Source of the DNA: Draconibacterium orientale
GTDB lineage: Bacteria; Bacteroidota; Bacteroidia; Bacteroidales; Prolixibacteraceae
DNA length: 64,000 bases
Reading direction: 5' to 3'
Assembly (NCBI RefSeq): GCF_000626635.1
Contig: NZ_CP007451.1
Span: 2,923,501 to 2,987,500, forward strand
Below are positions 17,173 to 51,761 of this stretch, one piece after another; position 1 is the first letter of the stretch, and each line of letters opens with the position of its first letter. Position numbers and translations under genes: made by a program. The notes under the pieces are model-generated. The model was not told where the DNA came from and ran no database searches. It was given only the letters and a program-made list of their open reading frames with translations.

Positions 17173-20049
17173 ATGTCTCAGGATAGATTCGTTACACGCC
17201 ATATTGGGCCACGAGGAGTAGAAATTGCCGAAATGCTTGAATATGTTGGCGTTTCGTCGATGGAAGAATTACTGGAACAAACAGTACCTTCAAACATCAG
17301 GTTGCAACAGCCGTTAAAAATGAAGGAAGGATTGTCGGAAAGAAAGTACTTCCGCCGCATTCTTGAACTGGCATCAATGAATAAAGTATTTAATACCTAT
17401 ATTGGAATGGGTTATTACGATACCATTACTCCGGCAGTGGTTTTGCGTAATGTGCTCGAAAATCCGGTGTGGTACACTTCTTACACACCATACCAGGCCG
17501 AGATTTCGCAGGGACGACTGGAGGCACTGTTGAACTTCCAAACCATGGTTTGTGGTTTAACAGGTATGGACATTGCCAATGCATCGTTGCTCGACGAGGC
17601 TACCGCAGCAGCCGAGGCGATGGTAATGATGGCCAACCTGCGTTCACGTAAAATGGTGAAGGCCGGAATGAATACCATTTTGGTGGATGAAAAGATGTGG
17701 CCACAAACGCACGATGTATTAAAAACACGTGCACTGCCGCTGGGATTCGAATTAAAAATTCAGCCAAAAGACGAATTTAATTTCGATGAGAATGTGTTTG
17801 GCGTAATCGTTCAGTATCCGAACTCGGATGGCGAAATAACTGATTATGCTGAGCTGGTTGAAAAAGCACACGAAAAAGAGATAAAAGTGGCTGTTGCTGC
17901 CGATTTGATGTCACTCGCCATTCTAATGCCTCCGGGAGAATGGGGAGCTGATATCGTATTCGGTAACTCGCAACGTTTTGGTGTGCCAATGGGATACGGA
18001 GGACCTCACGCAGCATTTTTCGCAGCCCGCGAAGAATTTAAACGAAACATGCCGGGACGTATTATTGGAGTAACCAAAGACATACACGGAAACCGGGCGC
18101 TTCGTATGGCATTGCAAACCCGCGAGCAGCACATTAAACGCGAAAAAGCAACATCAAATATTTGTACTGCACAGGCGCTGCTGGCTATTATGGCCGGTTT
18201 CTTTGGTGTTTATCACGGCCCTGAAGGTGTTATCGGAATTGCTGAGCGCATTCACAATATCGCTGCATTTCTTGCCATTGAAATTGAAAAACTGGGATAT
18301 ACCCAAATCAATAAAAACTTTTTCGATACCATCCGTTTTGCATTGCCAAAACATGTAATGCGCGAAGACATTGAATGGTTGTCGCTCGAGCTGGAAATGA
18401 ACTTCCGCTACTTCGAAAATGGCGATGTAGGTATCAGTATCGACGAAACCACCAACCCGCAGGATATTGGCTGGATTATAGAAGTATTTGCAAAAGCTGC
18501 CAACAAAAAATGGCAGGTGGCCGAAGAATATCCTGAAGGATTTGAAATTGATGCTGCGTTTAAAAGAACATCGAAATTTATGACCGAGGAAGTGTTTAAT
18601 AAGTACCGCTCGGAAACAGAGATGGTTCGTTACATTAAACGCCTGGCCAAAAAAGATATTTCATTAACACAATCGATGATCTCGTTGGGGTCGTGCACGA
18701 TGAAGCTGAATGCAGCTACTGAAATGTTGCCGTTAAGCTGGATTGAATTTAACGGTTTACATCCGTTTGTGCCGAAAAACCAGGCTCGCGGTTACCACGA
18801 AATGATGGAAGAACTGCGCCGCGATTTGTCGGAAATTACCGGAATGGCCGATGTCAGCTTACAACCCAACTCAGGTGCTGCAGGTGAATATGCAGGATTG
18901 ATGGTGATTCAGGAATACCACAAAAGCAGAGGCGAGGGCCAGCGCGATGTGGTGATTATTCCTTCTTCGGCGCACGGAACTAACCCGGCAAGTGCGGTAA
19001 TGGCAGGCACAAAAGTAGTTGTGGTAAAATGCGATGAAAAAGGTAACGTTGATATGGACGACCTTCGTGCCAAAGCTGAATTGCATAAAGACCGGCTTTC
19101 GGCGTTTATGGTAACTTATCCGTCAACGCACGGGGTTTTCGAAGCTTCGATTATTGAAATGTGCGAGGTGATTCACGAAAATGGCGGTCAGGTTTATATG
19201 GACGGTGCGAATATGAACGCCCAGGTTGGATTAACCAATCCCCGACTGATTGGTGCCGATGTGTGTCACCTGAACCTGCATAAAACATTTGCTATTCCAC
19301 ACGGTGGAGGAGGACCTGGTGTGGGCCCGATTGGCGTTGCCAGTCACTTGGTGGAGTTTTTACCATCGCACCCGATAATGAATAACGGCCACGTGGGAAT
19401 TACAGCTGTTTCTGCAGCTCCGTGGGGAAGTGCGTCGGTATTGCCGATTACGTACGGTTACATTAAAATGATGGGAGCTGAAGGCCTGACAGAAGCTACA
19501 AAACTGGCGATTCTGAATGCCAATTATATTGCAACCGCCTTGAAAGATAATTACGGAATATTATATACCGGCGAAAACGGTCGTGTGGCACATGAACTGA
19601 TTTTAGAATGTCGCCACTTGAAAGCTTCAGCCGGAATTACAGAAGAAGACATTGCAAAACGTTTGATGGATTATGGTTTCCATGCACCAACGCTGTCGTT
19701 TCCTGTTCACGGTACTTTAATGATCGAGCCAACAGAAAGTGAATCGAAAGATGAACTGGATCGTTTTATAAGCGCGTTAAACTCGATTTTCGAAGAGGTG
19801 AAAGAAGTGGAGAACGGAGTTGCCGACAAGGCTGATAACGTACTGAAAAATGCACCGCACACAGCCCAGAGCGTTTGTGCCGATGAATGGACACACGCTT
19901 ATGGCCGCGAAAAAGCTGCCTATCCGTTGGATTGGGTGCGCGAGAACAAATACTGGGTGCCGGTTGGCCGTGTTGATAATGCATGGGGTGATCGTAACCT
20001 GATTTGCACCTGCGGTTCGCCGGAGGAATACGAAGCTTTTGCTGACTAA
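17173..20049 (+). CDS. gcvP: Glycine dehydrogenase (decarboxylating), P protein of glycine cleavage
   Basis: PLP enzyme that decarboxylates glycine and passes the aminomethyl group to the lipoylated H protein. The ATG at 17173 gives 958 residues; an in-frame TTG six bases earlier is less likely because the family begins near MSQDRFVTRHIGP. It is the fused one-chain form: the N-terminal half has EISQGRLEALLNFQT and the C-terminal half has the PLP lysine K704 in NLHKTFAIPHGGGGPG. A strong terminator follows. No gcvT or gcvH is adjacent; the L protein candidate is at 61530 in this window. Confidence 0.97.
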   Translation: MSQDRFVTRHIGPRGVEIAEMLEYVGVSSMEELLEQTVPSNIRLQQPLKMKEGLSERKYFRRILELASMNKVFNTYIGMGYYDTITPAVVLRNVLENPVWYTSYTPYQAEISQGRLEALLNFQTMVCGLTGMDIANASLLDEATAAAEAMVMMANLRSRKMVKAGMNTILVDEKMWPQTHDVLKTRALPLGFELKIQPKDEFNFDENVFGVIVQYPNSDGEITDYAELVEKAHEKEIKVAVAADLMSLAILMPPGEWGADIVFGNSQRFGVPMGYGGPHAAFFAAREEFKRNMPGRIIGVTKDIHGNRALRMALQTREQHIKREKATSNICTAQALLAIMAGFFGVYHGPEGVIGIAERIHNIAAFLAIEIEKLGYTQINKNFFDTIRFALPKHVMREDIEWLSLELEMNFRYFENGDVGISIDETTNPQDIGWIIEVFAKAANKKWQVAEEYPEGFEIDAAFKRTSKFMTEEVFNKYRSETEMVRYIKRLAKKDISLTQSMISLGSCTMKLNAATEMLPLSWIEFNGLHPFVPKNQARGYHEMMEELRRDLSEITGMADVSLQPNSGAAGEYAGLMVIQEYHKSRGEGQRDVVIIPSSAHGTNPASAVMAGTKVVVVKCDEKGNVDMDDLRAKAELHKDRLSAFMVTYPSTHGVFEASIIEMCEVIHENGGQVYMDGANMNAQVGLTNPRLIGADVCHLNLHKTFAIPHGGGGPGVGPIGVASHLVEFLPSHPIMNNGHVGITAVSAAPWGSASVLPITYGYIKMMGAEGLTEATKLAILNANYIATALKDNYGILYTGENGRVAHELILECRHLKASAGITEEDIAKRLMDYGFHAPTLSFPVHGTLMIEPTESESKDELDRFISALNSIFEEVKEVENGVADKADNVLKNAPHTAQSVCADEWTHAYGREKAAYPLDWVRENKYWVPVGRVDNAWGDRNLICTCGSPEEYEAFAD

Positions 20050-20076
20050 AAAATAAATCTTTAGATAAATATTGAA

Positions 20077-20105
20077 AGCCGTCTGATTTTTCAGGCGGCT
20101 TTTTT
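20077..20105 (+). terminator. Rho-independent terminator after gcvP
   Basis: AGCCGTCTGA (20077-20086) pairs with TCAGGCGGCT (20091-20100), a 10-bp stem with one G-U pair and a TTTT loop, followed by five T residues. Confidence 0.9.
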
Positions 20106-20129
20106 ACTGTATCAGGCGTTTTGTATGTT

Positions 20130-20391
20130 CTCCGAAAAACCGGAGGTGAAAATCAGCCGTCAGGTTTTAGCTCCAGAAAACCAGAGGTCTGAAAAAACAA
20201 TCAGATTTCATCTCCGGGAAACCGGAGCAAAAAAATTGCGGTCATTTTTGACTTCCGAAAAACCGAAGACGAAAATCAGCAGTCGGATTTTAACTCCAGA
20301 AAACCGGAGGCCTAATAAAATGATCAGATTTCATCTCCGAAAAACCGGAGCAGAAAAACAGCGGTTGGTTTTGAGCTCCGAAAAACCGGAG
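20130..20391. repeat. 41-bp-period hairpin array, six full units plus one hairpin
   Basis: Units start at 20130, 20171, 20212, 20253, 20294, 20335 and 20376, exactly 41 bases apart. Each opens with a 16-base near-palindrome of the form CTCCGAAAAACCGGAG, followed by a 25-base segment that is also related between units. Units 1, 2 and 3 match units 4, 5 and 6 respectively better than their neighbours (for example units 2 and 5 both end ATCAGATTTCAT), giving a 123-bp higher-order repeat. The second segment can form its own stem in several units, for example AAAATC with GATTTT in unit 4. It lies after the gcvP terminator and about 65 bases before ispE. Confidence 0.93.
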
Positions 20392-20456
20392 ATGGTTTTT
20401 CATCTTTCCATCTTGGTGGCGATTGTCCGAACGAATGAAAATTATATTTTTGCTGC

Positions 20457-21260
20457 ATGATCACATTTCCCAATGCGAAAATAAATATCGGGCTGAATGT
20501 TGTGGAGAAAAGACCGGATGGTTATCACAACCTGGAAACCATTTTCTACCCGGTAAAATTGTCGGATGCCCTGGAAGTGGTCGAAGCCGGAGAAACTGCT
20601 TTTTCTTCATCGGGAATTGAGATTGATGCCACCGCGGAAAATAACCTCGTTTATAAAGCTTATTCTTTGCTTGCGGGGGATTTTGATCTATCTCCGGTAA
20701 AAATGCATTTACACAAGGTAATTCCGTTTGGTGCGGGGCTTGGTGGTGGTTCGGCCGATGCAGCTTTTGCCTTAAAAATGCTGAACGATTATTTTGTGTT
20801 GGGATTAACAACCACGCAGTTGGAAGATTACGCTGCCCGGATTGGTGCCGATTGTCCGTTCTTCATCGAAAACAAACCCACTTTTGCGCACGGCATTGGC
20901 GATCAGTTTAAACCGGTAAACCTCGATTTGTCGGCTTTCGAGATTGTTATCGTAAAACCATCTTTTTCGGTGAGTACTCCACAGGCCTACCGAAATATCG
21001 TTCCAACAAAACCCGGTTTTAACCTGCTGGAAATTGACCAGCTTCCCATTGAAGATTGGAAAACGGTGGTGAAAAACGATTTCGAAAAAAGCGTATTTCC
21101 GCAATTCCCCGAAATTGAAAACCTGAAAAATAGGCTTTACGAAGCAGGTGCCGTTTACGCTTCCATGTCGGGAAGCGGCTCGGCAGTATTTGGTATTTTT
21201 CGCCATTCACCGACAAATTTAGATAAATACCTACCTAAAGGTATTTTTATTTACCGATAG
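20457..21260 (+). CDS. ispE: 4-diphosphocytidyl-2-C-methyl-D-erythritol kinase
   Basis: GHMP kinase of the MEP isoprenoid pathway; phosphorylates CDP-methylerythritol. The 267 residues are in the family range. Motif 1 is FPNAKINIGLNV at the N-terminus, the ATP-binding glycine loop is PFGAGLGGGSADAAF (about 88-102), and motif 3 is ASMSGSGSAVFG near the C-terminus. It stands alone between the 41-bp repeat array and the small secreted repeat protein gene. Confidence 0.94.
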   Translation: MITFPNAKINIGLNVVEKRPDGYHNLETIFYPVKLSDALEVVEAGETAFSSSGIEIDATAENNLVYKAYSLLAGDFDLSPVKMHLHKVIPFGAGLGGGSADAAFALKMLNDYFVLGLTTTQLEDYAARIGADCPFFIENKPTFAHGIGDQFKPVNLDLSAFEIVIVKPSFSVSTPQAYRNIVPTKPGFNLLEIDQLPIEDWKTVVKNDFEKSVFPQFPEIENLKNRLYEAGAVYASMSGSGSAVFGIFRHSPTNLDKYLPKGIFIYR

Positions 21261-51367: not shown

Positions 51368-51761
51368 TTCAAGTTGATTTGCGAATGCTGATTAACGATT
51401 TTCGATTTCAGAAGTAATTTCATCGGGTACGCGTATTCTAAATCTCAAATCTCAAATCTGCAATCTTCAATCATCATTCAATATTCATCCTTCAACTTGA
51501 TTTTCGAATGCTGATTAACAATTTTTGATTTCAGAAGAGGTTTCATCGGTTACGAGTATTGTAAATCTCAAATCTTCAATCGTTAATCTTCAATCATCAT
51601 TCAATATATATCCTTCATCCTTCAACTTGATTTTCGAATGCTGATTAACGAACTATGATTTTCAGAAGTGATTTCATCGGGTACGCGTATTCTAAATCTC
51701 AAATCTACAATCGTTAATCTTCAATCATCATTCAATATTTATCCTTCATCCTTCATCTTTC
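51368..51761. repeat. Three tandem copies of a ~130-bp repeat built from heptamers
   Basis: Copies span 51368-51490, 51491-51620 and 51621-51751, each starting TTCAA(C/G)TTGATTT. Within each, runs such as AAATCTC, AAATCTG, CAATCTT and CAATCAT keep a 7-base register, and the first copy is shorter by exactly one heptamer (CCTTCAT). The array ends about 10 bases before the dnaB stop codon. Confidence 0.9.

Follow-up and report, generated by a model that had tools for sequence, protein, structure and literature searches.

Iterons and partition arrays of the parS/parC type are phased tandem binding sites situated near the gene of the protein that binds them. In one account of a different class of repeats, RAYTs are HUH/Y1 transposases and REPs are palindromes of 20-40 bp, many of which are GTAG-tagged (PMC3733652). 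The array considered here is located in a window of 64,000 nucleotides of Draconibacterium orientale, the whole stretch of DNA that was analysed. It belongs to a genome-wide class of repeats tied to genes of the family DUF6261, and this is the main point that goes beyond the original prediction made for the locus. No description of such arrays was found in the retrieved parts of the open-access PMC literature, and the class is apparently undescribed.

The array consists of seven hairpins starting at positions 20130, 20171, 20212, 20253, 20294, 20335 and 20376, with a spacing of exactly 41 bp (Table 1). Tandem Repeats Finder reports a period of 41 with 6.4 copies (20130-20391) and a period of 123 with 2.1 copies (20130-20392, 82% matches, score 365), confirming the seven hairpins and the 123-bp trimer that had been predicted. 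The segments between the hairpins repeat with the trimer and, as was also proposed, are not unique spacers. Pairing is retained in unit 4, where the stem is shifted to CTTC/GAAG and the second segment reads AAAATC/GATTTT, compared with AAAATC/GGTTTT in unit 1. Counterparts of the weaker dyad of unit 1, in the form of A-runs and T-runs, were recognised by eye in units 2-6. The location between the gcvP terminator and ispE agrees with the prediction; no DUF6261 gene is adjacent to the array, gcvP and ispE being its neighbours, and a functional tie of ispE to the array is not thought likely. The stretch from the array to the box TATTTTTG, which reads as a -7-type promoter box of Bacteroidota, looks similar by eye among array-bearing relatives. 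Another 123-bp tandem repeat is present in the window at 51368-51759 (3.1 copies, 86% matches); it is rich in A and T, has AATCTTCAATC-type runs and showed no CTCCG palindromes, and in spite of the equal period it probably has no relation to the 41-bp arrays.

Table 1. Features of the array locus in the window
Feature	Position	Strand	Basis
Array of seven palindromes, 41-bp spacing, 123-bp (three-unit) higher-order repeat	20130..20391	.	Tandem Repeats Finder and hairpin positions
First palindrome CTCCGAAAAACCGGAG, prototype of the unit, centre 20137.5	20130..20145	.	sequence
Weaker second dyad in unit 1 (AAAATC...GGTTTT), centred on 20158.5 at 21 bp from that of the first palindrome	20149..20168	.	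sequence and pooled half-period dyad
gcvP intrinsic terminator, directly 5' of the array (position approximate)	20075..20105	+	in many close relatives ispE comes straight after the terminator
TATTTTTG, -7-type Bacteroidota promoter box, 4 bp 5' of the ispE start	20445..20452	+	by eye, from the consensus
ispE, neighbour gene	20457..21260	+	open reading frame
111-aa open frame across the array	20125..20460	+	judged spurious

When compared with column-permuted copies in which the tandem structure was kept (40 permutations), the ispE array folds better, with z -5.6 on the + strand and -3.5 on the - strand; in a stricter dyad test on this single array the signal is weaker (z 1.9, with 8 of 200 permutations equally high). 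The same column permutation of 54 arrays gave a mean fold z of -3.2 (+) and -2.8 (-), with values below -2 in 36 of the 54 on the + strand, where 18 miss this level, and in 30 of the 54 on the - strand. The 111-aa frame, which the original prediction does not mention, is in another phase in the homologous arrays L048 and L046, contains one stop in the same phase in L047 and matches no Pfam family above the cut-off, and was rejected as protein-coding. The original argument for selection on nucleic-acid structure rather than on protein is upheld.

The symmetry of the units is most evident when arrays are pooled. Among 68 arrays, the pooled dyad score peaks at the best centre (z 18.4) and has shoulders there, and a single further sharp positive peak stands at half the period (21 bp of 42; z 10.5). 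Taken singly, 17 of the 68 arrays have their second-best dyad no more than 1 bp from the half period, versus 10% in the null. Since the sequence is periodic, a dyad at the half period is equivalent to symmetry of the whole unit about the first dyad. B-DNA has 10.5 bp per turn. The distances of 41-42 and 21 bp correspond to about four and two turns, so that along an array the two-fold axes are turned to one side of the helix. Mismatches in the stems were G-T in 72 cases and A-C in 85 (p 0.34; 53 of the 54 arrays had a scored stem), and because this shows no strand bias, neither strand is favoured as RNA; the mismatches favour double-stranded DNA over RNA.

A search of the D. orientale genome with the window array returned one further place, with 68% identity over 265 bases, where seven hairpins spaced by 41 bp end 155 bp before a gene encoding a 244-aa DUF6261 (PF19775) protein. 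Two arrays of seven hairpins are present in Draconibacterium mangrovi (G005), one of them 5' of the orthologous DUF6261 gene and the other preceding a putative cellulase gene, which we take to be GH9-like from reading its sequence. The own genome and a relative therefore contain further copies, whose absence would have counted against the original prediction, and elsewhere the palindromic layout of 41/42 bp is found again with unrelated sequences. A strict two-hairpin pattern matched two of the 37 genomes of the genus; a match in Pseudoduganella was a short local repeat with other segments and was set aside.

Some arrays are accompanied by a 28-base leader, TTAAARCTAAACATATTTTTTATGTTTC, itself an inverted repeat (AACATA/TATGTT), which is located at L048:7356-7383 and also occurs before the arrays of L087 and L090. 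With three mismatches allowed, the leader pattern has four copies in the own genome, each shortly upstream of an array: three precede DUF6261-linked arrays and one, with three mismatches, precedes a dispersed array at G000 1480615. The reversed pattern, used as a control, gave no match in the genome. The leader also accompanies an orphan array in D. mangrovi, and it is absent from the window array.

DUF6261 was found in 26 of the 37 genomes of the genus (116 matches), and, among sampled genomes, in 15 of 148 from the order and 12 of 392 from the phylum, the match in one of the latter being below the family cut-off. Linkage was assessed in the 700 bp upstream of the genes at lags of 25-70, with block shuffles as the null. 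An array with a period of 40-43 was present upstream of 39 of 45 loci in the genus and 22 of 27 other loci in the order, whereas the downstream control gave 0 of 46 and 3 of 25, respectively. The genus sample comprised 46 of the 116 loci, including the own-genome, G005 and G008 copies, and one of the 46 was dropped upstream as too short; the order sample comprised 27 of 73 non-own matches, with two too short downstream for the control. Every DUF6261 gene of the own genome, ten in number, is preceded by an array. In a wider set, with lags of 15-90 open, 13 of 18 loci exceeded z 4 with a best lag of 40-43 or its double, while the downstream side of two of these 18 loci gave a z of about 4 (lags 63 and 90).

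A clear array was seen at 70 of the 96 DUF6261 loci with a readable start, and all 70 had periods of 40-43, 83 or 85 bp: 42 bp in 37 arrays, 41 in 27, 43 in three, and 40, 83 and 85 in one each (a best lag of 80-86 was counted as its half if the half scored as well). From one DUF6261 gene to another the unit sequences mostly show no relation, even where the proteins are 69-80% identical. Genes of the L048 type (13 found, in eight of the 37 genomes) illustrate this: all 12 readable ones (L313 was not readable and was left out) have arrays of exactly 41 bp, built on at least five motifs that look unrelated by eye. For pairs of proteins at least 35% identical whose arrays have no blastn similarity, the period was shared in 158 of 193, versus 86.4 expected and reached in 0 of 5000 permutations, which ignore relatedness. 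Mapped on a tree of the 68 proteins, the period shows 14 changes, versus 24.1 when shuffled (0 of 200 as low). The correspondence is not strict, as the close proteins L088/L093 and L095/L094 have 42 versus 41 (or 40) bp. A class of DUF6261-linked arrays, in which the sequence turns over at a near-constant period, is well supported, and the window array has its 41/42-bp period, its palindromic unit and a motif in common with a DUF6261-linked array.

Arrays of this kind are also dispersed in the genome. A scan of 1,664,000 bases (32% of the own genome, made up of the window and 80 pieces of 20 kb each) yielded 57 periodic stretches at lags of 15-90, among them 27 with a period of 41, 42, 82, 83 or 84, 13 with a period of 21, and 17 with other periods, including two 81-bp stretches inside frames that were left out of the 27. 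By naive ORF calling, 24 of these 27 stretches are not inside any frame of at least 150 aa. Six are DUF6261-linked and 21 dispersed; 12 of the latter match a DUF6261-upstream region of the own genome or a relative (104 such regions, some of them duplicates, in a run without control), and nine have no DUF6261-linked match. An earlier run, on a slightly different set and with fewer upstream regions, gave matches to upstream regions for 10 of 22 dispersed arrays, versus two of 22 (L226 and L261) with downstream control regions; L261 (39 bp) matched in both comparisons and is not among the 21. The frames neighbouring dispersed arrays show no obvious preferred orientation by eye.

Several individual repeats of the genome may be mentioned. 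At L222:12037-13967 (G000 C1 about 2,444,037-2,445,967) a very long 42-bp array covers about 1.9 kb; its units, of the TTGGGAGTACTCCCAAAG type, are near-perfect and share their motif family with the array preceding the DUF6261 gene L088. At L235:17279-17514, units of the GCGAG type in one direction are followed by CTCGC in the other with 21-bp spacing, by eye a large, two-fold symmetric arrangement. Intergenic CTTATCACC-type repeats with 21/42-bp spacing and no obvious palindrome (L203:7743-7928 and L223:6473-6597) possibly represent a further family.

Two genomes with no DUF6261 match, G016 (308,682 bp read) and G012 (150,164 bp read), contained no dyad-symmetric array in these 458,846 bp. 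Two 42-bp repeats were found there, both without dyad symmetry, and one of them lies inside a frame that presumably encodes the glycine repeats of an RNA-binding protein. At the density of the own genome about 7.4 arrays would be expected in this small sample of draft contigs, and the Poisson chance of two or fewer is 0.02.

At the ispE site itself, a periodic array was found in three of 30 loci of the genus, own included: 41/82 bp in the window, 41 bp at L113 and 21 bp at L111. Upstream of ispE at L106 there are, by eye, two hairpins 41 bp apart, and the other 26 loci have neither an array nor a hairpin pair; three loci near contig ends (L123, L126 and L127) have no array, with best self-matches of 0.48 (lag 63), 0.48 (lag 63) and 0.55 (lag 33), respectively. 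The ispE-adjacent stretch looks similar across the four array-bearing loci and the arrays themselves differ, which suggests that the array sequence at this site has been turned over in place, with repeated losses or gains. The array of L111 (G035) has a TTTGAGTTGAAG-like unit at the same ispE site as the window array, and the own genome has 21-bp arrays of similar appearance at L184 and L260.

Pfam assigns no function to DUF6261, and in the retrieved parts of the open-access PMC literature the mention of DUF6261 concerns Streptococcus. The family shows no known DNA-binding domain: all 25 members searched match DUF6261 in Pfam, and any other family was matched by two members at most (best E 0.0011); no Rep or ParB family was matched by these members, and no transposase was present among the best 25 of the 38 Pfam families matched. 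The NCBIfam, PADLOC and PDB-sequence matches are weak (best PDB E 0.036), with one weak Cas2b match (E 0.019) among four proteins searched in PADLOC. Two unnamed PHROGs families matched one member each, one at 1.2e-5, and the viral contigs searched gave no relative. The protein looks all-helical; a single-sequence AlphaFold model had a mean pLDDT of 41 and was discarded.

The reading that we prefer, with about an even chance of being correct, is that the arrays are phased DNA lattices bound by DUF6261 oligomers and that the window array is a dispersed satellite in a class with its presumed founder copies upstream of DUF6261 genes. A chain of symmetric dimers on DNA would be expected to leave two-fold axes in a lattice along one face of the helix, hence the proposal of a DUF6261 oligomer. 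Symmetric oligomers touching along the helix would bind double-stranded array DNA, and recognition would rest less on a fixed sequence than on spacing and dyad symmetry. The unrelated motifs of proteins that are 69-80% identical are awkward for sequence-specific binding. From the presumed founder array DUF6261 might regulate its own gene, and it might also bind the dispersed arrays, including the one before ispE. The anatomy of the arrays, their linkage to DUF6261, the turnover of sequence at a near-constant period, the pooled half-period dyads and the dispersed relatives are observed; binding, oligomerisation, autoregulation and any role in chromosome organisation are what we infer. A protein-binding array or nucleoid site was among the functions first suggested, and this suggestion agrees with the binding proposed here. 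A bolder version, tentative and somewhat doubtful, is that of an undescribed chromosomal system of Bacteroidota, in which helical DUF6261 would read geometry, namely two-fold axes every two turns, and not sequence, with dozens of arrays acting as anchor points of a nucleoprotein lattice. If geometry is read instead of sequence, the spacing of the arrays would be kept while the letters turn over.

The chief rivals of the DUF6261-lattice reading are a selfish element similar to REP/RAYT and a function as RNA. As a selfish element, which seems unlikely, DUF6261 would copy leader and array, alone or with host enzymes, and the window array would be a non-autonomous copy. An array beside the gene with dispersed copies of the same motif, the leader at two orphan arrays (in D. 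mangrovi and at G000 1480615) and the many gcvP-ispE sites of relatives that have no array are all consistent with copying. However, DUF6261 matches no named transposase family and its alignment has no near-invariant histidine, the family of the window array occupies only two places in the own genome, and at ispE there is no clear target-site duplication by eye and no leader; the helical period would also be left unexplained. It appears quite improbable that the arrays are transcribed and that their hairpins act as a sponge, as DUF6261-bound RNA or as a regulator of the adjacent gene. The better folding of arrays than of permuted controls and the pairs kept in the window units despite changes point towards RNA, but G-U is not in excess over A-C on either strand, one would not expect RNA to keep a constant spacing of 41/42 bp while its sequences are unrelated, and the promoter-like sequence of DUF6261 genes lies, by eye, downstream of the array. 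Rfam gave no match at its curated threshold in 19900-20600, the best one (E 0.011, 24.5 bits versus a gathering score of 60) being at 20030-20105, outside the array. The small structured RNA that was originally considered is accordingly disfavoured.

A regulatory leader of ispE, another of the early suggestions, might be supposed from the end of the array 65 bp before the gene and upstream of the promoter-like box, but it is very improbable, given the 26 of 30 genus loci with neither array nor hairpin pair, the quite different arrays at two of the remaining four, and the absence of an obvious preferred orientation of dispersed arrays to neighbouring frames. Hardly credible is a neutral local tandem duplication or a coding repeat, even though tandem arrays expand readily and a frame is open through this one: homologous arrays of seven units are present at three other loci, all 70 clear DUF6261-linked arrays have periods of 40-43 or doubles, and the frame has no conserved phase and no Pfam family. 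Neutral duplication is further contradicted by the upstream linkage as set against the downstream control. Taken together, the original interpretation is partly supported.

The linkage provides the DUF6261 family with a concrete and testable hypothesis, that of DNA arrays as its ligand, and it reveals an abundant class of bacterial repeats in which the period is conserved and not the sequence. Should DUF6261 read spacing and symmetry, as the lattice reading proposes, it would recognise DNA in an unusual way and perhaps add a new layer to chromosome organisation; should it spread the arrays, they would be a new kind of selfish element.

By the features tested, the arrays are not CRISPR, not an Rfam family at threshold and not REP/RAYT, the last because the linked DUF6261 matches no named transposase family. 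With CRISPR they share palindromic repeats at regular spacing, but CRISPR was rejected since the segments between the hairpins repeat and are not unique spacers, and DUF6261 is not a Cas family beyond the one weak PADLOC match. Like MITEs, they are short, non-autonomous and dispersed, although no terminal inverted repeats or target duplication were seen by eye at ispE and the interior is a tandem lattice. The likeness to iterons and partition arrays is in the phased tandem sites near the gene of a putative binding protein; the differences are that DUF6261 has no Rep or ParB match, and that there are many arrays per chromosome with differing sequences and no conserved palindrome sequence. With the REP/RAYT systems (REPtrons, REPINs, BIMEs) they share dispersed extragenic palindromes, of which one set is placed next to a dedicated gene, motif families that differ between paralogues, and dispersed copies of the gene-side motif, found in 12 of 21 dispersed arrays. 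No GTAG or CGTC tag was noticed in reading the window units, DUF6261 matches no HUH/Y1 family, and, unlike REPs, the palindromes here are organised in tandem lattices of 41/42 bp with a rapid turnover of sequence.
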